64,000 bases of DNA from Methanobacteriota archaeon (GTDB taxonomy: Archaea > Thermoplasmatota > Poseidoniia > Poseidoniales > Thalassarchaeaceae): positions 1-64,000 of the forward strand of contig JAAZXW010000009.1 of assembly GCA_014239955.1 (NCBI GenBank), read 5' to 3'. The notes under the pieces were generated by a model, which saw nothing but the letters and a program-made list of their open reading frames with translations, did not search any database and was not told the origin of the DNA. The position numbers were made by a program, and so were the translations under genes. Below are positions 20,952 through 56,247 of this stretch, piece by piece; positions within the stretch are counted from its first letter, which is position 1, and every line of letters begins with the position of its first letter.

Positions 20952-23825
20952 TCATGCACATGCTCTTTCAATATGCCTGGTTACCACTCCTACACTGGGA
21001 ATTGTGTGATCTTCTAACGTAGGTGAGAAAGGAACTGGAGTGTCCAAAGCACCAATGACTATCGGCGGCGATTCCATTCTCCAGAATGACTCTTCCACAA
21101 TTCTACTGGAAACAGTGTGACCGAAACCTCCAGTCCATTGAGATTCTTGGAGAACAATTAGGCGACCAGTTCTCAATACTGAATTAACGCAAGTCTCGGA
21201 GTCGAATGGAACAAGTGTTCTTAGATCAACTACCTCAACTTCTAATCCCCTTCTTGCTACCTCTTTTGCTGCATCTAGAGCAACATGCACCATCGCACCC
21301 CATGTGACAATGGTTACATCATTGCCACCACGAACTACTCGGGCATCTCCAATCGAATTCTTTCCTTCCTCCAGCCTCTGTTGGACCGACGTTGTGTCTA
21401 CGATTTGGTTAATCGACTTGCCCCATCCCGTCATACCTCCTCTGAGGCCGTATAGTCCAATGTGCTCAAGGTAGACAACCGGATCTGGCAGGTGATGCGA
21501 TTCAATCAGAAGATCATAGGCATCTTGGGGGTTGCTCGGGAAGACAATAACCAAGCCCGGATCATTTGTCAGCCATGATTCAATCATGTTTGCATGGAAT
21601 GGTCCACTTCGTGTCTTTGCTCCTAGGGGAATTCTCACAGTTAGGGGGACCTCTGCGCCCCATCTCCATCGAAGTTGGGCTGCATTGTTTACCAGTGGAT
21701 TCATTGCTAGCGAAGCAAAACCTCCGAATTGAATCTCTGCTAGTGGACGCATCCCCCCCAAAGCAGCTCCAGTCGCTGAATGGATGATTATAGCCTCAGA
21801 GAGTGGCATATCCAGAAGTTTTGATTGGTGCCCCTTTGCCTTCAATCCCAGGCTCATTCCGAATGCCCCTGCGACTTCCATATCCTCTCCCATGAAAATC
21901 ATCTGCTCCCCGAATTGCTCGGCCAGAGACGCCATGGCATTCTGTATCGACCTGCTGAAAGTCCACGAGTTCGGAGCATCTGAAAACTTGATTGCGTGCT
22001 CCCCCGGTTCGATAATTGCGTCCGGGATCTCACCCACCCGATCGATTCTACTAAGTTGGTGTTCATGACTCGTGGCATCAAAAAAGGAGGTTACTCCCCT
22101 TACCACCGAATTCCCTTCAGGCCAATCCATTTTCTCCAACTCCTTCCTAGCCACAGAAATATTCTCCTCCTCCTCCTCTAATATTCGATTTAGCCTCTGT
22201 TCACCAACTCCCAATTTTGTCAGTAATTCTCTATGATTTGGGAGTGGATCTTTCTCGGCCCAGTATCTAAGCAATTCACGATCGACATAACCCGGGGGGT
22301 TTCCACTTGCAGCTCCGAGGTAAAGGTCGTCATGATGGTGCGCATGCCCGCAACCTCTCATTGTTTCAACATGAATAAGCGTCGCTCCACAATCGGCTAT
22401 GGCGAACTCTCTAGCAACAGCAGAAGATGCATAGAACATTGCCGGATCAGCCCCATCAATGGTCCACGAGGGTATTCCCATAGCGTGCCCTTTGTCGCCA
22501 AAGGTTTCTGCTCCTGATTGTGCAGAGTTGAATGTGTCCAGAGCAATTTGGTTATTCTGAATCATAAAGCAAATTGGCAGGCCACGAACCCCTGCGAAAT
22601 TCATCGCTTCCCAGAACTCTCCACTACTACTGCACCCCTCTCCAACGGGGGCTAGGTGAAACCTCTTCACACCCAGATGTTTTGCTGCCAGTGCTACGCC
22701 AGTTGTAGTTGCGCTCGCTATTGGCAAGGGGGCTGTTGGGGGGAGGACCCCTTTCTCCCAGTTACCAATGTGTAGATCGCGACCACCACTGCCCTCTATT
22801 CCCCCATCCATGTACGAATCAGCCTTTCCCATTTGCGCTGCTAAGACCTCAATTGGCGTCTGCCCCATGGCCAGAGCAAGGCCCATGTCTCGAATCATCG
22901 GTGCGACGATATCCGCATTTTGTCTCTCATTATGAGGGAGGTCGACTGCTCGCTTCATTGCAGTTGCACACGCCACCACTCCCTCTTGCCAAGTTGATCT
23001 GAAGCCCTTCCCCCCGAATCTCCCCCCATCAGGAGTTGGTAAGCCAGATATGGATAGATTCCTCAGCTCTTCATCGACCAACCTTGTTCTAATCATCCTT
23101 CTTTGCCATTGCAACCTATCTTCGACAGTTACTGAATAATAGTGGGCAATCCTCCTCAGACAGAGGGTAACATCCACCAGGAACCTCGTCATTCTCCTTT
23201 CTAGGAACATCTCACCTTTCCTCCGAGGAATGATTTCAGATTCACTCAAGGATGAGAGATTTGGGCCAAGTAGACGTTCTGATAGGACGCTCTCTAACTC
23301 AGAAATCAGCAATCCAGAGAACACGTGGAAGCTACCCCCATCCAGTCTATTGGGGAAATTCAGATTCCCCCAGCAATCAGATACCGTATTCAGATGACCG
23401 TCATGCCTTTCTGCGATAAACTCCAATAACGCGCCTCTGACAATTTCAGACTCAATTCTTTGTGGGAATTCCAAGGAGAAACCAGGTTTCCATCCCGCGC
23501 CCCAGATTTTAGGCAATATAGATTGAGGATCATCATTTCCAAAGGAGTCATCCGAGGGGATTTCCTCACTTCGAGGAGCCCCGTCGTTCCTCCTTTCTAC
23601 TTCTTCTTCGAGTTTCCCCATCCCCCGACGTGAGTCTCTTTCCCAGACCTGTATACTCCTTGTCCTACCCTTTCCCGAAGAGGATCTATCCAGTGTTGTT
23701 CTAGCTCTTTTTCCGCAGCCAGAGCATTTTCTATCTAATTTATTGGCATTATGCGACCTCGTCTTCCAAATTTGATGAAGACTGCATTCAGGGCACTTCC
23801 AAATCCCTATTCTCGCTAATGCCAT
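20952..23825 (-). CDS. Fused 2-oxoacid dehydrogenase E1 (alpha+beta), TPP-dependent, with N-terminal zinc ribbon
   Basis: GEGCSSSGEFWEAMNFAGVRGLPICFMIQNNQ (E1 alpha), FMGEDMEVAGAFGMSLGL...EAIIIHSATGAALGGMRPLAEIQF (E1 beta); N-term CPECSLHQIWKTRSHNANKLDRKCSGCGKRA. Confidence 0.9.
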   Translation of the reverse strand: MALARIGIWKCPECSLHQIWKTRSHNANKLDRKCSGCGKRARTTLDRSSSGKGRTRSIQVWERDSRRGMGKLEEEVERRNDGAPRSEEIPSDDSFGNDDPQSILPKIWGAGWKPGFSLEFPQRIESEIVRGALLEFIAERHDGHLNTVSDCWGNLNFPNRLDGGSFHVFSGLLISELESVLSERLLGPNLSSLSESEIIPRRKGEMFLERRMTRFLVDVTLCLRRIAHYYSVTVEDRLQWQRRMIRTRLVDEELRNLSISGLPTPDGGRFGGKGFRSTWQEGVVACATAMKRAVDLPHNERQNADIVAPMIRDMGLALAMGQTPIEVLAAQMGKADSYMDGGIEGSGGRDLHIGNWEKGVLPPTAPLPIASATTTGVALAAKHLGVKRFHLAPVGEGCSSSGEFWEAMNFAGVRGLPICFMIQNNQIALDTFNSAQSGAETFGDKGHAMGIPSWTIDGADPAMFYASSAVAREFAIADCGATLIHVETMRGCGHAHHHDDLYLGAASGNPPGYVDRELLRYWAEKDPLPNHRELLTKLGVGEQRLNRILEEEEENISVARKELEKMDWPEGNSVVRGVTSFFDATSHEHQLSRIDRVGEIPDAIIEPGEHAIKFSDAPNSWTFSRSIQNAMASLAEQFGEQMIFMGEDMEVAGAFGMSLGLKAKGHQSKLLDMPLSEAIIIHSATGAALGGMRPLAEIQFGGFASLAMNPLVNNAAQLRWRWGAEVPLTVRIPLGAKTRSGPFHANMIESWLTNDPGLVIVFPSNPQDAYDLLIESHHLPDPVVYLEHIGLYGLRGGMTGWGKSINQIVDTTSVQQRLEEGKNSIGDARVVRGGNDVTIVTWGAMVHVALDAAKEVARRGLEVEVVDLRTLVPFDSETCVNSVLRTGRLIVLQESQWTGGFGHTVSSRIVEESFWRMESPPIVIGALDTPVPFSPTLEDHTIPSVGVVTRHIERACA

Positions 23826-28850: not shown

Positions 28851-29723
28851 ATGGCAGGGGCGGCGAAGTCTTCGGCGCCTGTCCGGGTCGACCTTGCTGG
28901 TGGTTGGACCGATGTAGGCCCATATCCCAGCGACTTTGGCGGAGAAGTCGTAAACTTCGCAATTAATCTCAGAGTGATTGCTCGGTCCGCTTCAGTTCCA
29001 GCCAACAGAAAGACAGACTTCGAGTTCCCAGTTCCTAGGGGCTCTGGATTGGGAACCAGTTCTGCAATGAATGTGGCCTTGTCAGCGCTTATCTCCCCTG
29101 ATCAACTAGAATATCCGGAAAAACTCGCTGAGGAAGCCTTTGCCCTCGAATCCCAGGGGGGAAATTATTGCGGAAGACAAGATCAGTGGGCATCAGCCAT
29201 AGGTGGCTTCAACCATCTGCTGTTCATCGGCGACTCGGTCGAGAGAATGCCATTCGAACCAATGAAATCATCAATGAATTGGCTGAAGAAGCACCTGATA
29301 ATCTCATTCTCAGGTAAAAGTAGAAATTCCGGAGAAATGCAAGAATCAGTATGGTCGAGGTACTCAAATGGGGATGCGGAAGTAATCAGCGGTCTGCATA
29401 GGATTAGGGGTGCCGCCAGAGTGATGGCAAATGGCCTCCAGCAAGATCGTCGGGACATGGTAGTCTCTTCACTGAGGGAGGTATGCGAGGGAGTGGATTT
29501 GATCGATAAGGCAATCCATGATCCCTTTCGAGATGTTGTAGAATCCCTCATCGGAAAAGGATCCGCTGTAGCTTGGAAGGCATTGGGGGCAGGAGGAGGT
29601 GGGTGTTCGGCAATCCTGTGCTCCCCAACCGGTATGGAAGACGTTACTCGGACTATTGAGAACGCGGACTGGGAGATTATTGAGTGGGATTTTGAGGGCA
29701 AAGGCGTCCTTCTGCACGAGTGA
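28851..29723 (+). CDS. GHMP kinase (heptose-7-phosphate kinase / fucokinase-like)
   Basis: SSAPVRVDLAGGWTDVGPYPSDFGGEVVNFAI, PRGSGLGTSSAMNVAL, LGAGGGGCSAILC. Confidence 0.88.
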   Translation: MAGAAKSSAPVRVDLAGGWTDVGPYPSDFGGEVVNFAINLRVIARSASVPANRKTDFEFPVPRGSGLGTSSAMNVALSALISPDQLEYPEKLAEEAFALESQGGNYCGRQDQWASAIGGFNHLLFIGDSVERMPFEPMKSSMNWLKKHLIISFSGKSRNSGEMQESVWSRYSNGDAEVISGLHRIRGAARVMANGLQQDRRDMVVSSLREVCEGVDLIDKAIHDPFRDVVESLIGKGSAVAWKALGAGGGGCSAILCSPTGMEDVTRTIENADWEIIEWDFEGKGVLLHE

Positions 29724-29769: not shown

Positions 29770-32700
29770 ATGGGCGACCGCCGTTCCATGTTTGTTCCTC
29801 TGGCACTCTTGGTCCTAATCGCACCACTAGCAGCCTCTTCAATTTCTGTTGAGACTTCGCCACAAGGCGGTTTCGATGCTAATGGCGATTGGGTCCCTAG
29901 CATAGAGTCCGACATCCACTGGAACTGGTGGTCTCATTGGAGCCGAGACAAGGATTCTAACTCCCTCGATGACAGACTGGAATGGTTGATCGAACAACCC
30001 GAACAAACTCAGAGAGACTGGTGGAAGAGGGCTCCAGAGGGAAGTGCAAGGGTTTTCGTGGACTATGACCACCACCCAACAGATGCCGATATCTCAGCCC
30101 TAGAGTCACTTGGGGTGGAAGTGACCTTCAGATACGGATATCTGGACACAGTCTCTGGGACATCCCCCATATCGAAAATAATCGACGAGGGGGGCATCAG
30201 ATCACTCAATGGTGTCGTGATGGTAGAGGACCTTGGTCTCGCCGAGACTAACATGCATGAGGCAGTTCCCAACATGGGGGTGGACACCGTATGGGAAGAC
30301 TTCGGTCTTGATGGCACCGGCTCTGTGATTGCCATTCTGGATACGGGAGTCCGTGGAGACCACGAGGGGCTCAACGACATGGACGATGACCCTCTAACAT
30401 GCATCGACGACCCCCCGGACCCATTCGATCCGGATCCCGACCCTCTTCCCTCAGATTGCGATCCAAAGATCATCGCATTCTTCGATGCCGTTCTCACAGA
30501 TGAGGAGCAAGACCCATCCACATCATACGACTCAGGCACACACGGAAGCCACGTTGCAGGAATAGCGGCAGGGACCGGCGGCGGTCAGACTGACCCGGGA
30601 ACCGGATTGAGGTACGTGGGAGCAGCTCCAGGAGCTCATCTGATCAATATCCTGGCATGCTGCGATGGGGACATCGAGGACGTGATACAAGGGGCCCAAT
30701 GGGCAATTGACAACAAGGAAAAATACGGAATCGACATAGTGACCTCTTCCCTGGGGGAGCAGCAATTCGAGGTACATTTGGACAACGATGGAAGCTCTGC
30801 ATGGAGCCGCCAGATGGACATGGTAGTTGAAGCCGGAATCATCACCACGCTCTCCGCAGGCAACGAGTTCGGTGGACTGACCGTTGCTGGATGCAACACC
30901 ATAGATAGCCCTGGAGACGCTAATCTGCCCGTAACGGTAGCCAGCTTGGACAAGGATCTAGGCCTTGCGATCTACAGCAGCAGAGGGTACACATCCGACT
31001 TGAGGGTTAAGCCGGATGTAGCCGTAATCGGATCAAGCATCATGGCCCCGGATGCAGCGACCCAAGATGGTTACATCAGCAAGTCAGGGACTAGCATGGC
31101 CACTCCTCTTATGGCTGGAATTGCGGCTCTGATGATCCAGGCAAACCCGGACCTCACACCCACCGAGTTCAAGGACATCATTTCCGCACACTCTATCGAA
31201 CGCGATGTCCAGTTGCTCGATGACCCCGGACTAAACGACTGCAGCCTATTGGAAACCAGGCCAGACAACGAATTCGGATTCGGACAGGCTGATCCAATGG
31301 CCTTCGTGGAGGCGGCAGGAAGCATTGACCGCTCCCTGAATATCTCGATGGAAGTTGCCACTATGGGGGAGGTCCTCAATGAGAGCTACATACATGGATC
31401 ATCTTCCGGAGCCGAGGTAGGATCATCAGGGCCAGGTAGCAAGACGAAGGTCGAGGTTCGAGTAGGGGGCGGAGAATGGAAGGAAGCCGTGGACGATTCT
31501 CCACTGGGTGACTGGGCCCTGTGGAGCATCCGATTGGAACCACACGTTGAGTCTGGAAACTCGACAATCTATGCCAGACTGGTGGTCGACGACGAACACA
31601 TTTCCCCAATTGACGCCCGAAGGGTAATCCTACTCGATATACCAGCAGTAGCTGACGGGTCCAACGACTCGGACGCTTCCAAAATTCTGATTATCGCGAT
31701 AGCTCTGATGTTTGCCTTGATGCTCGGGTACGTGGTCTTCCACAGGGAACGCCTGATTGAAGAGTGGTACGATGGAGAAAGCCTTACGGACAACAGACTC
31801 AGAAGAACGGCTTCTCTGTGCATTCTATACTTCGCTCAAGGCCTCCCATGGGGGTTCGCCGTAGTTGCATTCGTAGCATACCTGGCCAACAATGGCTTCA
31901 CTGCAGGAGAAACCGGGACTCTTCTGGCCACGATAGCACTTCCTTGGACCTTCAAATGGATATGGGGGCCTGTAATCGATACACTAAACATCCCGATCTA
32001 TGGAAAACGAAGGCTTTGGGTCCTTTTCTCTCAGTTTGGAATGGCATTGACCATCGGAATTATTCTCTTTGTTCCCAACTTGATAGAGCAGATCGACATT
32101 GTGATCACGCTCATGTTCATCCACAACATCTTCGCTTCCCTCCAGGACGTCAGCACTGACGCTCTAGCTGTCGACGTTTTGGAAGACAACGAGGTTTCGA
32201 AGGTGAATGGATATATGTTCGCATCAAAGAGGGCTGGGATGATAGTCGGAGGAGCCGTTCTTGGCGGTTTGGTCAGCTCCATCGGCATCAGAGGGATGCT
32301 CGCTATCCAGCTTCCCCTACTCCTTCTGATCATGGTGCTGCCCATGTTCCTATACGAGAAGCCGGGTACTAGGCTATTCCCGTGGTCTACTCGAATGTCC
32401 GAGTCCACTGGGTCAGAGAAAGACAGCCTCTCCGATGAGTCGGATGAAGTGGATGAGAAACTCTACTGGGATGATCCGGAGGAATCTAAGTGGTGGGCTG
32501 CCGTAGCAGTGGGCAAGGCGACCTTCGAAGAGAAAATCTCCATTCCAGCATTTATCACGATAATCTCGATTTTTATCTTCGTGTCCGGCCTAGTGTTCGC
32601 CATCGCCTCAGTGGATCTCACAGTGCCATTCTACTCAAAGGCCAAGATAGTCGCATTCGGAGGTTTAGTCCTCGCAACATTTGTAGCGTTTTTCAACAGA

Positions 32701-33501
32701 CTTGTTGCAGATGGTTATTTGCCCAAGGTACCCAATCCATTCTCTTTGTTGTCTAAATCCTCCACGAGAACTCTTGCTCAGACTAGTTTCAACTTAACCA
32801 AGGCATTCCATCTGAAGTCTTCCTTCCTTCTGATTTTCTGCTGCCTTCTTACCGAAATGTACTACTTCCTTGACCCTATTATCATTGACATATTAGTTGT
32901 GCAATCTGGTTGGGGGGACGCAAAGTACAGCTTGATCGTTGGAGGGGGCGGTATCCTAGCAACCATGTTTGGCCAAATCGCGGGTGGTTTCCTCGGGGAA
33001 AAATTCGGCGTAAGGAGGATGGGAATGATTGGATTCACCTGCCTCGCGATATGCAATGGCATGCTAGCCGTCCTGGAACCACTCTGGACAAACACCCCAG
33101 TCATGGTGGTGTACGTGTTAATCAAAGGCTTCGTCACAGGTGTCGCCTTCATCGCTGTAGTTGCTGTGTGCATGAAAATGACATGGAGCAAGGTGGGCGG
33201 GACACAATTCACTGCATACATGTCGATGTTCAACCTAGGAGGGGTGGTAGCACTCTCCAAGACAGGGCAGGTTCTGAAATTCTTTGACAACGATGTCATC
33301 CCAGCAATCTACTCTGGTGCGGTCCTCACGTTGTTCGCCGTGATCTTCTTGATTTTCATTGACCCCGAGGAGTGTAACAGGGTTCTGGAGAATAAATCCG
33401 AAGATGGAGAAGTCATTGATGCCGAAATCATGGATGCCGATTTGGGAGAATCCGCTTGGTGGGACGAGGAAGGAGGCGGTGACACTGTCACAGCTGCATG
33501 A
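29770..33501 (+). CDS. Fusion protein: secreted subtilisin-like protease + TM + AmpG/PAT-like MFS transporter
   Basis: One uninterrupted 1243-aa ORF; S8 motifs VIAILDTGVRGDH, SGTHGSHVAGIAAGT, SKSGTSMATPLMAGIAALM; then ILYFAQGLPWGFAVVAFVAYLANNGFTAGETG, SLQDVSTDALAVDVL, multiple TMs. Confidence 0.9.
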   Translation: MGDRRSMFVPLALLVLIAPLAASSISVETSPQGGFDANGDWVPSIESDIHWNWWSHWSRDKDSNSLDDRLEWLIEQPEQTQRDWWKRAPEGSARVFVDYDHHPTDADISALESLGVEVTFRYGYLDTVSGTSPISKIIDEGGIRSLNGVVMVEDLGLAETNMHEAVPNMGVDTVWEDFGLDGTGSVIAILDTGVRGDHEGLNDMDDDPLTCIDDPPDPFDPDPDPLPSDCDPKIIAFFDAVLTDEEQDPSTSYDSGTHGSHVAGIAAGTGGGQTDPGTGLRYVGAAPGAHLINILACCDGDIEDVIQGAQWAIDNKEKYGIDIVTSSLGEQQFEVHLDNDGSSAWSRQMDMVVEAGIITTLSAGNEFGGLTVAGCNTIDSPGDANLPVTVASLDKDLGLAIYSSRGYTSDLRVKPDVAVIGSSIMAPDAATQDGYISKSGTSMATPLMAGIAALMIQANPDLTPTEFKDIISAHSIERDVQLLDDPGLNDCSLLETRPDNEFGFGQADPMAFVEAAGSIDRSLNISMEVATMGEVLNESYIHGSSSGAEVGSSGPGSKTKVEVRVGGGEWKEAVDDSPLGDWALWSIRLEPHVESGNSTIYARLVVDDEHISPIDARRVILLDIPAVADGSNDSDASKILIIAIALMFALMLGYVVFHRERLIEEWYDGESLTDNRLRRTASLCILYFAQGLPWGFAVVAFVAYLANNGFTAGETGTLLATIALPWTFKWIWGPVIDTLNIPIYGKRRLWVLFSQFGMALTIGIILFVPNLIEQIDIVITLMFIHNIFASLQDVSTDALAVDVLEDNEVSKVNGYMFASKRAGMIVGGAVLGGLVSSIGIRGMLAIQLPLLLLIMVLPMFLYEKPGTRLFPWSTRMSESTGSEKDSLSDESDEVDEKLYWDDPEESKWWAAVAVGKATFEEKISIPAFITIISIFIFVSGLVFAIASVDLTVPFYSKAKIVAFGGLVLATFVAFFNRLVADGYLPKVPNPFSLLSKSSTRTLAQTSFNLTKAFHLKSSFLLIFCCLLTEMYYFLDPIIIDILVVQSGWGDAKYSLIVGGGGILATMFGQIAGGFLGEKFGVRRMGMIGFTCLAICNGMLAVLEPLWTNTPVMVVYVLIKGFVTGVAFIAVVAVCMKMTWSKVGGTQFTAYMSMFNLGGVVALSKTGQVLKFFDNDVIPAIYSGAVLTLFAVIFLIFIDPEECNRVLENKSEDGEVIDAEIMDADLGESAWWDEEGGGDTVTAA

Positions 33502-33751
33502 TATCATCGAGAGTGCTGATGAGGACTTCCTCGTCTTCACTCAAACGATCTGCCCATACTGCACACGGGCGTTCAGGACTCTAGATTCTAAGGGCCTCAC
33601 TTACATGGAAGTGAATCTGGACAACTTCTTGGGACTGAGGAAGGACGTGGTTATGGAGACTGGACACAGGACCGTCCCCGTGGTGTTCGACATGCGTGGA
33701 GACGTCCCGATCTTTGTTGGGGGGTCTGACCGCCTTATGGAATACCTCTAG
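33479..33751 (+). CDS. Glutaredoxin-like protein (GTG start)
   Basis: FTQTICPYCTRAFRTLDSKGLTYMEVNLD...HRTVPVVFD...FVGGSDRLMEYL. Confidence 0.88.
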   Translation: MTLSQLHDIIESADEDFLVFTQTICPYCTRAFRTLDSKGLTYMEVNLDNFLGLRKDVVMETGHRTVPVVFDMRGDVPIFVGGSDRLMEYL

Positions 33752-34734
33752 AGGCTCCATGACTGAGTGATTCCGCCAGCTATCCTCACCCTCAAGAAGG
33801 TGGAGCTACCTGTGAAGGTGGCCGTGAGGGTGTATTCCCCCGAGGGATAGGGAATCGTCCCTAGAGTACCCATCTCGCTTGCTCCGGGCCCCCAAATCCT
33901 CTCCAGTGCCGAGATTGACGTGTGGTCCCTCAGAGTCATGGAGATGGATGAGCCCGAGCCACAATCGGCATCAATGAAGTAGATCATCTCGTCCCACTCA
34001 CCATCGCTCTGGTGGTCGTTAACGAGAAACGTGTCACGAATCTCGATGTCGTTACCGGTATCTTCCCAAGTGTCGCCGAACAGGTCCCCTCCCCTCACGA
34101 AGTATACATCACCGGTGTGACCCGAACCACTATCGGAAAGCATCATCCTGAGATTCGTGACTCCCATCGGATCCTTCCATGTGAATGAGTAGAAGAAACC
34201 GGCTTCGTTGTCGAACACGTAATCCAGTCTCGAACCGTCGGAAGAGGTGGCGATAATCACCGCCGTGCTCCCTGATATGTCGGAGACGAAAGCATCCCAC
34301 TCCATGGAGAATAGCGTGAATGACCATGCATTACCCTCCTCGAGGGGGAAACTCAGAACCGTCTGCGCGACACCGTTCTCGAAGGTCCCCAATTCGGAAT
34401 GGGTAATCCTCCCTAGGAATGGGTTGTGGTTGAGCACCGCATGGCGCCTAGCCTCTGTCAGGCTGGAAATAGCAAGCATGTATGCAGTCCCATCCTCTTC
34501 ACTGGTGCTAGCAACCACCAGCCTAGCAGTGTCGTCACTGTAATCCGGGGTCGAGAAGGTGTAGAGCCACCAGTCCCCAGTCTCCCATGCAGCGACTTCG
34601 AAAACACCCGATGAAGGGCCTCCCGAGTCTGACTGGCCTCCCGAGCACCCAGCAAGGGATGACAACAGTAGTACCACTAGGATTGCAAATGCACGACTCG
34701 ACCTCACGACTCTCGCTAGAGCCGCCCCCATCAA
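33748..34734 (-). CDS. Putative lipoprotein, unknown function
   Basis: N-terminal hydrophobic stretch followed by lipobox LAGCSGG; no recognised domain. Confidence 0.7.
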   Translation of the reverse strand: MMGAALARVVRSSRAFAILVVLLLSSLAGCSGGQSDSGGPSSGVFEVAAWETGDWWLYTFSTPDYSDDTARLVVASTSEEDGTAYMLAISSLTEARRHAVLNHNPFLGRITHSELGTFENGVAQTVLSFPLEEGNAWSFTLFSMEWDAFVSDISGSTAVIIATSSDGSRLDYVFDNEAGFFYSFTWKDPMGVTNLRMMLSDSGSGHTGDVYFVRGGDLFGDTWEDTGNDIEIRDTFLVNDHQSDGEWDEMIYFIDADCGSGSSISMTLRDHTSISALERIWGPGASEMGTLGTIPYPSGEYTLTATFTGSSTFLRVRIAGGITQSWSL

Positions 34735-52779: not shown

Positions 52780-55700
52780 ATGCGCCCGGCCTCCTATGCC
52801 ATGCTGATGGTAGCTGCTCTGGCGTTTGCTCCAATTGCTTGTTCTCTGACCGTGGCCGATCTTTCCTACCATCATCCTGATTCAGGAGATGTATCGGTGC
52901 AGACCAGGACTACGGGTACTGCCGATGTTCCAGACTGGCGAGTTAATGACAACTGGATGTATGACGGATATCTCGATGTGGCGGATTTCGTAGCGGATTC
53001 CGGCGTCTCTACGAACGTTGAGACTCTGGAGGGATCCCTTGACAGAACCGTTTCTGACATCTACCTGTCCGACATTGATGGGGATGAAACCCTTGTCTAC
53101 GAAGTTGAATCAGTCGGTGCTTACGAGTCAGACGGTGCAATTGAGATCGATGGGACCGATGGATGCCTCTACGTTGATATGCAGACAACAGAGATAATCA
53201 GAGTTTCAGACTTGGCTACTTACTCCCAGGATGTCACGATTGACGTATACTTCGACCCGCTATTCTTCACAAGTTGTTCCTCTTGGCTTAGGCAGGATAT
53301 CGGTGTACTGAGTGTGGAGAACACATTCGAACCCCCTCTGGAGAACTACGATTTCCCCCTCTCGGTCGGGGAGACATGGGGTATGGACTACGACCAGGAT
53401 ACGGAATACAGCGGTTCTAGTAATTACGTTGACATCCCGGACGACACGAGCGATTCCAACTCAACCAGCTGGGCAGTAGTGAGCCAAGGAAACTCCGGAG
53501 TCGCGTATCCCGGTTGCTACCAGTCATTCAACGTGACAGCCTATGACTCGGATGGGGACGAGATGGGATACAACTGGTACTGCCCATCCATCCGTGGCGA
53601 AGTGAAGAGCTCAATCGAACAGGCATTCGGTTTCTTAGCAGTACACGAGCTAGTTAGCTACCAACCAGTCTCGAGAGGGAAGGAGATTTCGATAGACGTC
53701 GAATACCCACTCTCTCCCACTGACATAGAGATATCCGCATGGATCAACGTCACAGATCAAGGCCAAGGGGTGGCGGAACAGGATCTTCAGTTCCGATACG
53801 AGTCCGAGCAGCAAACCCAGAATTTCACTACCGATGAAAACGGCTCCTACCACCTGGTCTTCAACTCGGGAGGTAATCCCGATGACACCTACGGTGCCGG
53901 AGAGCTAGGTAGTCACGGACTGATAGCATGGACGCATCTGGGGGGCAAGATCCTCGGAACAAAGTCACTAGTGATCGACACCGAAGTCCACGAGATTGAT
54001 CTGGTCACCAGATCATCAGCAGTAACGGTTCAGAGGCTCAGGCCATCCACCGGGAACGAAGTTACTCTCCACTCATCCATCGGATTCACGGCCATATCGG
54101 GAGACATTCTGAGTTTCTCTATCCCAGTATTGAACCGAGGCCTAATCCAATCTCCATACTCCACCATTGTCGTCACCGCTCCCGATGGATCAGAGGTATC
54201 AGGCACTGTCCCTCCACTCGACAGCCTCCAGGAGTCCAGGGTAGCCGTGAACTGGACCGTACCCGAATCACAACCATATGGCAATGTCTACTTGTTCTTC
54301 GAGGTAGATCCTCAGGAGGAGATCCCCCAGGATGGGAACCGTTCTAACAACCAGGGCTCTTTCGTCCTCTACGTCGGGGGCCTCCCAATCGCCGACCTCT
54401 CAATCTCCAACGAGGTCCTCACTCACGAAACCGTGACTCTGGACGCCAGCTCTTCTCACGACTCAGATGGTGGTGACGTGGGCTGCGAGTTCAACATCGA
54501 AAAGGTCGATGGAACCACTGTAGCGGTCATCGATGATGACTGCATTGTCAATTGGTCATGGGCTGATGATGGGGTCTTCACGGTCACAGTCCTCGTTACA
54601 GACGGTGAGAGCGACGAATCCTCGACATATTCAACGGTGTCCGTGCAGAACCGCCCTCCGGTGGTGACTCTTGGTTCAGACGAGGGAGAGGTAGTGGTCA
54701 CCAACCCCATAACGTTCGCTGTGATAGATAGCAGTGACAATGATACTAGGAATCCATCCTCACCAGTGGAAATACTCTGGGGTGCAGAGTGCTCCGAGGG
54801 TCAGGTCGGCCAGTCGTGCACTGTAATACCCATGGTAGAGGGAAACCTGACCATTGGCGTCCTGGCAACGGACGATGACGGTGCCACTACCTATGTCCAA
54901 CACTCTGTGCAAGTCACAAATATCGCACCTTCCAATCCTGTTGCAGAACTATATCTCGGCGAGGAGAGGCTCTTCCCCGACAGCCGAGGAGTATTCACTG
55001 TCAACGAGGGCGACGAGATTACATTCTGGGGTCAGGCAGATGACTCGTCAAACGACATCGATACGCTGGTTCACGTATGGAAACCCGATGCCGAGCACTA
55101 CCCAGAGAGAAACTCAACCAGTACAGGTGGTAGGAGCACACTTTCGGGAGTCTCATACAACTCATCCGGAATGCACCTTGCGACTCTGCAGGTCTTCGAC
55201 GACGATGGAGAGGAAACTGAAATCCTGATCGTACCAATCCAAGTAGTCAACGTTATTCCGGAGATTTATCCTATGTCGACCATCCTCGGCGATCTTGAGG
55301 AGGACGAAGAGTTCGCAATCACTCCAGTGGTATCGGACACTGGTAATGACTCCGAAACCCTCGTCCACTGCTTCGACCTCGATCCCTCTGCCGACACTGA
55401 CTCGGACGGGGTCGTGGGAAATGACTGCGACGTTCAGTCCAGTGCCCTCGTCCACTCGTGGCCCGACTCGTCTTCAGCCCCAGACTCGATAATATTCCAC
55501 GTCACAGATGATGACGGAGCAACGGACTCGATATCGTTCTCTTTCGTCGTCGTCAACTCCCCTCCAGAGGCCTTTGCCTCGGCCAGCATTTCCAACCCTA
55601 CAGAAGGAGACACGATCACCCTCTCAGCCAACGGGACGATCGACTCACAGGCTGATATGGATTCCCTGGAATTCCACTGGGACATCGATATCACCGTCGA

Positions 55701-56247
55701 CTCAAACGGGGACGGCAACCCTGCCAACGATGTCGATTACACTGGTAGGTGGATCGAGTTCTCCTATGACTCCGGGGGATCGAAGAAGGCACAGCTAACT
55801 GTACTGGATGATAGCTCCAGCCACTCATTTACCATGAATCTGGAGGTGGCCGAGAAACCAGCCACCATCTCTGGATCCATCCAATCCAATCTGTGGGTCA
55901 TCATTTTCGCTCTAGCAGCAATCTTGTTGGTCGCATGGTCCGTCATGAGAGCCACTGGGAACGAGTCTAGCAAGACGCCAAAGGGGCCAGAGGCGATGGA
56001 CATTGATGCGGCATTCGACGATCCCGGAGAATCATTGGAATGGACTAGTCCTTTCGAAGCAAATCCCGAGACAACACGCCATCGAGAGGATGCCATGATG
56101 TTGGAAGGATTGGACGAGGTTCTCGATGAACTCACTGGTAACAAGCCAGAAACGACCCCATCACCTGAGTTGCCTCCGGCACCGAGCATTGACGAATCAA
56201 TAGCCACTCTGAACCCCGAAGACATCGAAGCACTCTTTGAGGAGTAG
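52780..56247 (+). CDS. Large surface protein with PKD-like repeats, C-terminal TM and acidic cytoplasmic tail
   Basis: Signal peptide; PKD-like 'LDASSSHDSDGGDVGCEFN...WSWADDGVFTVTVLVTDGES'; TM LWVIIFALAAILLVAWSVM. Confidence 0.85.
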   Translation: MRPASYAMLMVAALAFAPIACSLTVADLSYHHPDSGDVSVQTRTTGTADVPDWRVNDNWMYDGYLDVADFVADSGVSTNVETLEGSLDRTVSDIYLSDIDGDETLVYEVESVGAYESDGAIEIDGTDGCLYVDMQTTEIIRVSDLATYSQDVTIDVYFDPLFFTSCSSWLRQDIGVLSVENTFEPPLENYDFPLSVGETWGMDYDQDTEYSGSSNYVDIPDDTSDSNSTSWAVVSQGNSGVAYPGCYQSFNVTAYDSDGDEMGYNWYCPSIRGEVKSSIEQAFGFLAVHELVSYQPVSRGKEISIDVEYPLSPTDIEISAWINVTDQGQGVAEQDLQFRYESEQQTQNFTTDENGSYHLVFNSGGNPDDTYGAGELGSHGLIAWTHLGGKILGTKSLVIDTEVHEIDLVTRSSAVTVQRLRPSTGNEVTLHSSIGFTAISGDILSFSIPVLNRGLIQSPYSTIVVTAPDGSEVSGTVPPLDSLQESRVAVNWTVPESQPYGNVYLFFEVDPQEEIPQDGNRSNNQGSFVLYVGGLPIADLSISNEVLTHETVTLDASSSHDSDGGDVGCEFNIEKVDGTTVAVIDDDCIVNWSWADDGVFTVTVLVTDGESDESSTYSTVSVQNRPPVVTLGSDEGEVVVTNPITFAVIDSSDNDTRNPSSPVEILWGAECSEGQVGQSCTVIPMVEGNLTIGVLATDDDGATTYVQHSVQVTNIAPSNPVAELYLGEERLFPDSRGVFTVNEGDEITFWGQADDSSNDIDTLVHVWKPDAEHYPERNSTSTGGRSTLSGVSYNSSGMHLATLQVFDDDGEETEILIVPIQVVNVIPEIYPMSTILGDLEEDEEFAITPVVSDTGNDSETLVHCFDLDPSADTDSDGVVGNDCDVQSSALVHSWPDSSSAPDSIIFHVTDDDGATDSISFSFVVVNSPPEAFASASISNPTEGDTITLSANGTIDSQADMDSLEFHWDIDITVDSNGDGNPANDVDYTGRWIEFSYDSGGSKKAQLTVLDDSSSHSFTMNLEVAEKPATISGSIQSNLWVIIFALAAILLVAWSVMRATGNESSKTPKGPEAMDIDAAFDDPGESLEWTSPFEANPETTRHREDAMMLEGLDEVLDELTGNKPETTPSPELPPAPSIDESIATLNPEDIEALFEE

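Follow-up and report, generated by a model that had tools for sequence, protein, structure and literature searches.

The stretch analyzed here, called the window, is a 64,000-nucleotide piece (positions 1 to 64,000) of contig JAAZXW010000009.1 from a Thalassarchaeaceae archaeon and lies in a 22-contig genome bin. It contains an open reading frame (ORF) of 1243 amino acids (aa) which runs from its ATG to its stop codon without an internal stop and in which a signal peptide and a subtilisin-like S8 protease are followed by a transmembrane (TM) helix, TM0, and a transporter of the major facilitator superfamily (MFS). The original prediction, made from the DNA sequence alone, had described exactly such a continuous chain, with an intact S8 triad and a protease held outside the cell, and all of these features could be confirmed. 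A Pfam domain search returned both expected domains, PF00082 and PF07690, above their cut-offs.

The protease part matches Peptidase_S8 with 147.9 bits against a cut-off of 21.8 (Table 1). The catalytic triad and the oxyanion Asn are present in the order D191, H258, N365 and S442, and the comparison shows these four residues to be conserved throughout the 48 S8-bearing transporter proteins (nine end before the Asp, at the end of the stretch) as well as in eight of eight stand-alone orthologues. Such conservation indicates selection for enzymatic function in the protease. Its closest solved relative by sequence is Tk-SP (3afg, E 3e-35).

The transporter part is covered by MFS_1 (PF07690) over residues 683–1025 with 96.8 bits against a cut-off of 33.4 (E 1.6e-27); weaker Pfam matches are BT1 and Acatn. 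With this score and with the multi-helix fold, which also matches, the protein belongs to the major facilitator superfamily. The original prediction had gone further and assigned it to the AmpG/PAT type, and this assignment holds in part. AmpG cryo-EM structures are the best Foldseek matches (E 8e-14; PDB 9j9z, 8zgz and 9c3f), with target template-modelling scores (TM-scores) of 0.5–0.8 on a model of moderate quality. SLC33A1 (9mun) and PepT structures rank after AmpG as more general MFS fold matches, and PepTSt likewise appears merely as such. AmpG is also the best-scoring NCBIfam transporter model (TIGR00901), yet its 105.1 bits are far below the curated cut-off of 350, and PF13000 (Acatn), at 30.9 bits against 23.7, covers only positions 5–87 of the 546 of the profile. 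The transporter is therefore AmpG/PAT-like, but it is not AmpG by the curated test. The sequence SLQDVSTDALAVDVL, noted in the MFS by the original prediction, is present, and in the family alignment of 15 sequences most of its positions (LQDV..DALAV..L) do not vary.

Two hydrophobic segments, the signal and TM0, precede the multi-helix MFS. In 95 homologues the 12 residues before TM0 contain on average 0.2 Lys/Arg as compared to 2.4 after it, and 90 of the 95 have more Lys/Arg after TM0 than before. This excess places the N-terminal domain (the ectodomain) outside the cell and the N-terminus of the MFS inside. TM0 was found in all 97 ectodomain-bearing proteins checked, whatever their class, 47–104 aa before the MFS. 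Its sequence is family-specific and common to different ectodomain classes, which puts the point of exchange just outside TM0. The full-length AlphaFold model shows TM0 and about 14 further membrane helices, with a mean predicted local distance difference test score (pLDDT) of 63 and a predicted template-modelling score (pTM) of 0.47.

Table 1. Features of the fusion gene and of its neighbours (positions in the window)
Feature	Position	Strand	Basis or remark
Fusion gene: S8 subtilase–TM0–AmpG/PAT-like MFS transporter	29770..33501	+	ATG to stop; one frame kept in dozens of genomes
Signal peptide, residues 1–25 approx.	29770..29844	+	hydrophobic segment 7–25; exact end approximate
Probable subtilase propeptide region, residues about 92–153	30043..30228	+	inferred from alternating strands/helices in model and weak alignment to Tk-SP 3afg propeptide
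Peptidase S8 catalytic domain, residues 182–505	30313..31284	+	Pfam PF00082 E 5e-43; residue conservation
S8 active-site codons	Asp191 30340, His258 30541, Asn365 30862, Ser442 31093	+	residue conservation
Beta-rich domain after protease, residues about 524–625	31339..31644	+	AlphaFold strands, pLDDT about 70–84; without Pfam match
TM0 anchor helix, residues 639–657	31684..31740	+	hydrophobic segment; TM0 also in homologues
MFS transporter domain, residues 683–1203	31816..33378	+	Pfam MFS_1/BT1/Acatn; family alignment A1; fold match to AmpG
Extra two-helix segment inside MFS	about 32524–32709	+	present in most members of the window's family
Glutaredoxin gene, start overlapping the end of the fusion gene	33479..33751	+	Pfam PF00462 E 3e-12; start codon choice uncertain
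GHMP-kinase-like gene upstream	28851..29723	+	flank helping define conserved slot
Lipoprotein-like gene	33748–34734	-	without Pfam match; kept beside transporter and glutaredoxin across family

S8 and MFS are separate in a few genomes, and one could suspect that assembly or gene calling has joined two genes in the window. For the comparison with other genomes we denote the window's family, Thalassarchaeaceae (MGIIb), as f1 (by named records its sister family is Candidatus Poseidoniaceae, MGIIa); f3 is another family of the same class in a different order, g-numbers are genera, and G- and L-numbers label the sequences compared. Full-length fused frames of about 1230–1340 aa are found in about 20 genomes of the nearest set, and further fused frames in dozens more genomes from many other f1 genera. 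Among them are two from single cells, AG-422-I22 (L205) and AG-422-I18 (L214), as well as one on a 533-kb contig from the metagenome-assembled genome (MAG) PACB-20200310-m80 (L234), whose name suggests PacBio data. In f3 Pfam finds both domains as well, and the S8 part is 53–55% identical to that of the window. Since the same frame recurs in so many independent genomes it is not an assembly artefact, and we regard this explanation, whose probability is negligible, as refuted. The break near 31660–31800 which the original prediction had named as a danger does not occur, full frames being present in many genomes, and homologues are not always split either, though stand-alone S8 orthologues exist in some genomes. 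Confinement of the fusion to the window's genus could be rejected, the fusion being family-wide and also present in another order. G173 and G237 are two fused-transporter copies on different contigs of one genome bin, which points to duplication or mixed strains.

A profile of the MFS core built from the family alignment (A1) detects this core in 191 of the order's 293 genomes and in a few f3 genomes; outside the class, within the phylum, the profile search returned just ordinary MFS proteins of 400 aa, which score far lower. What precedes the core varies. Pfam identifies S8 in most f1 genera and in f3, the M28 peptidase in g3 of f1 and in g14 and g16 of f2 (with intact metal-site motifs GxHHD, AYDDGTG, DYEE and SDH[YF]), and a plastocyanin/azurin-type cupredoxin in g7 of f1 and g14 of f2. 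All five cupredoxin ectodomains have the AHNA motif, and two of the five match the copper motif YEYVCEPHE..GM exactly. Two further classes are uncharacterized, namely a beta-rich domain named WG after its MYFWG motif (g1, g4 and g18 of f1; g11 and g13 of f2) and a lipoprotein-like domain, LP (g11, g12, g13, g15 and g19 of f2). A 440-aa paralogue has no ectodomain. The loci L247 (5203–5991) and L236 encode an f3-like transporter with another N-terminal domain (MWAYGTMQN...) without Pfam match, which may be a further, possibly sixth, class. Profile comparison detected no relation of the LP and L247 ectodomains to WG. The AlphaFold model of WG is a beta sandwich of modest confidence (pLDDT 67), and its fold matches, some of them jelly-roll or carbohydrate-binding proteins, have low TM-scores (mostly 0.2–0.4) and therefore do not identify WG. 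This comparison shows that throughout the class the MFS and TM0 form a conserved core on which the outer domain has repeatedly been replaced, in part without a change of locus.

In f1 this locus is bordered on one side by riboflavin genes, often together with a GHMP kinase, and on the other by glutaredoxin, lipoprotein, pyrophosphatase, GATase and NifU genes, and the neighbourhood is identical in kind for S8 and WG ectodomains. Among the M28 versions, g3 has the downstream flank in common and G049 of f2 has both flanks, so that the slot common to S8, M28 and WG lies upstream of glutaredoxin and pyrophosphatase. The f1 neighbours were not seen at other f2 loci or in f3, where many stretches are short and the flank comparison is thus partial.

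Several label changes are needed to place S8 and WG on the MFS tree, and all ectodomain labels together need 13 changes on the 99-row tree. Not one of 200 bootstrap trees unites the WG rows in a single clade. With groups named after seeing the first tree, the AU (approximately unbiased) test rejected a single WG origin within f1 (p 7e-29) and also a tree in which all S8 rows are held together (p 1e-113). Read in this way, the MFS tree requires repeated ectodomain exchanges. The tree also disagrees with the genus labels, G004 and G023 (g1) grouping for instance with g9 and G060 (g4) with g1, which suggests that the locus has been exchanged between Thalassarchaeaceae genera. Half of the 16 WG-bearing genomes examined (five of eight in g4 and three of eight in g18) have a stand-alone S8 orthologue elsewhere; as many genomes are incomplete, its absence means little. 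These orthologues are 64–76% identical, have their own C-terminal TM and branch at two or more points within the clade of fused S8 sequences, a pattern compatible with fission following the exchange. Where WG replaced S8 and the stand-alone protease was kept, both functions are retained.

The glutaredoxin gene stands beside the transporter in nearly all f1 genomes, with any ectodomain, and in G049, and in the window it overlaps the end of the fusion gene. The transporter might accordingly import glutathione-like disulfide peptides or another thiol compound, with the adjacent glutaredoxin reducing the cargo, and SLC33A1, of the same fold group, does export oxidized glutathione, GSSG (PMC12889552). 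We nevertheless consider this quite improbable. Glutaredoxin is not adjacent at other f2 loci or in f3 (with short flanks for many), the role of a subtilase would be left unexplained, and as the whole neighbourhood is conserved the adjacency adds little. Elsewhere in the window two other long chains are encoded: a 957-aa protein (20952–23825, minus strand) that combines dehydrogenase E1, transketolase pyrimidine-binding and C-terminal domains and thus represents a fusion of the E1 alpha and beta parts, and a 1155-aa protein with PKD and CARDB domains (52780–56247, plus strand), probably a surface protein.

What could a protease do in front of a transporter? The explanation to which we tentatively lean, and which is quite possible, is that a surface peptidase is tethered to its own importer and makes small products at the importer mouth. 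The subtilase is held outside the cell by TM0, continuous with the MFS, and would cut extracellular proteins or large peptides there; the transporter would then import the small products, short peptides or peptide-like molecules, which in this arrangement could be captured before diffusing away. In the literature, marine group II (MGII) archaea are regarded as degraders of protein, equipped with extracellular peptidases of the S8 and M28 families (PMC6864105, PMC6336850). Two unrelated peptidase families, S8 and M28, occupy the same position on the same transporter, and the nearest fold group carries peptide-bearing substrates, muropeptides in the case of AmpG and GSSG in the case of SLC33A1.

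Several observations speak against this explanation. True AmpG identity had to be rejected at the TIGR00901 score given above, and scanning Pfam with E values up to 1 gave no POT/PTR2 family. The neighbouring genes (riboflavin synthesis, GHMP kinase, glutaredoxin and pyrophosphatase) offer no peptide-uptake context. The S8 part of the full-length model is of such low quality that the position of the active site with respect to the transporter mouth cannot be read from it. The same MFS also bears ectodomains that are not peptidases (cupredoxin, WG and LP), and the bacterial homologues from Rhodopirellula and Phycisphaerae MAGs (L248, L252, L254, L261 and L265) are without a large ectodomain, L265 having a lipoprotein-like start and a TM0-like helix. 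By analogy, TagC-type fusions indicate that a protease–transporter chain can serve signalling rather than feeding (PMC3743828). In the small planctomycete sample asparaginase-2 is found near two of the transporters and an alpha/beta hydrolase beside two from Rhodopirellula, and these neighbours hint at peptides or amides; the transporter is rare in that planctomycete class (4 of 150 genomes).

The degrade-and-import machine of the original prediction is incomplete, because the same transporter also bears M28, cupredoxin and two or more domains for which Pfam has no match. The M28 variant fits it; the cupredoxin and these other domains do not obviously do so. The MFS with TM0 could instead be a general platform whose transport is unrelated to peptides and which merely displays, stabilizes or localizes the ectodomain, by anchoring or in a GLMP-like manner. 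This is the main rival and is somewhat doubtful in our view. The same variety of ectodomains and the planctomycete homologues speak for it, as do the subtilase paralogues of the same genomes, which already carry their own C-terminal TM anchor, and the finding that PepT proteins still transport after removal of their ectodomains (PMC4597091). The recurrence of two catalytic peptidase families with intact sites, however, goes beyond the needs of display, and the S8 fusion has been kept across the large divergence between orders. Variants that carry cupredoxin or non-enzymatic domains speak for a wider reading, a transporter plus exchangeable ectodomain. In this form, which we hold to be possible and advance with reserve, the proteins would be class-wide MFS importers with an AmpG-like core and TM0, the front end being swapped, often in place, and each lineage would capture the products of a different extracellular reaction.

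An export or maturation unit like TagC is unlikely. There the ectodomain would process an exported compound or precursor, or transporter activity would present the protease; Tag proteins indeed act in signal-peptide production, and TagC transporter activity is required for presentation of the protease (PMC3743828). But Tag proteins are ABC transporters, not MFS, and the nearest fold, AmpG, is an importer. No ABC ATPase or membrane domain was found in the Pfam scan, and the window protein is not a Tag-type S8–ABC chain.

Protease–transporter fusions (the Tag proteins, of ABC type) and MFS proteins with ectodomains are already known, and the surprising part is the swap series more than the single fusion. 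A search of open-access literature gave no description of an MFS protein with fused S8 or M28, nor of a single transporter core on which enzymes and other domains replace one another in place as the ectodomain. The portion of a 2024 survey of archaeal fusions available to us (PMC11237513) leaves an S8–MFS fusion unmentioned, and two MGII genome papers, to the extent available, give extracellular peptidases and mention no fusion. The statement that no characterized protein has this architecture stands as far as found for S8–MFS; it needs correction for S8–ABC, where fusions have been characterized (PMC3743828). For planktonic archaea that have no cultured relatives, one chain that cuts and transports would, if true, be a direct answer to the diffusive loss of what their extracellular enzymes produce. 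Our data suggest that some of the S8 and M28 peptidases taken for free extracellular enzymes in MGII may be transporter-bound, and the repeated exchange of the front end suggests an uptake device with a replaceable outer part. The ectodomain swaps on one transporter provide a ready-made natural variant series.

Among known systems, Tk-SP of Thermococcus kodakarensis resembles the window protein in its S8 sequence and has no attached transporter. AmpG is an importer which carries muropeptides, and to our knowledge muropeptide recycling is not expected in these archaea; it provides the nearest fold and the best-scoring NCBIfam transporter model, whereas the window protein has an N-terminal ectodomain and TM0 and scores far under the family cut-off. 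The acetyl-CoA transporter SLC33A1 shares a partial Acatn match above the gathering score and the fold match to 9mun, and we know of no ectodomain fusion in it. The only characterized S8–transporter fusions known to us are the Tag proteins. Dictyostelium TagA/B/C likewise combine a serine protease and a transporter in one chain and present the protease at the cell surface, but they are eukaryotic ABC exporters with a role in developmental signalling. The MFS dipeptide transporter MFSD1 requires GLMP as its ectodomain partner (PMC11252000); it is similarly a peptide transporter dependent on a single-TM ectodomain protein, with the difference that there are two chains, that the ectodomain is non-enzymatic and that the complex is lysosomal. 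By analogy the closest functional parallel is offered by mammalian PepT1 and PepT2. In these POT-family transporters, which are not AmpG-like, the protease is recruited instead of fused and the immunoglobulin-like ectodomain is inserted within the MFS; this ectodomain binds trypsin and has been proposed to concentrate peptides at the transporter (PMC4597091).

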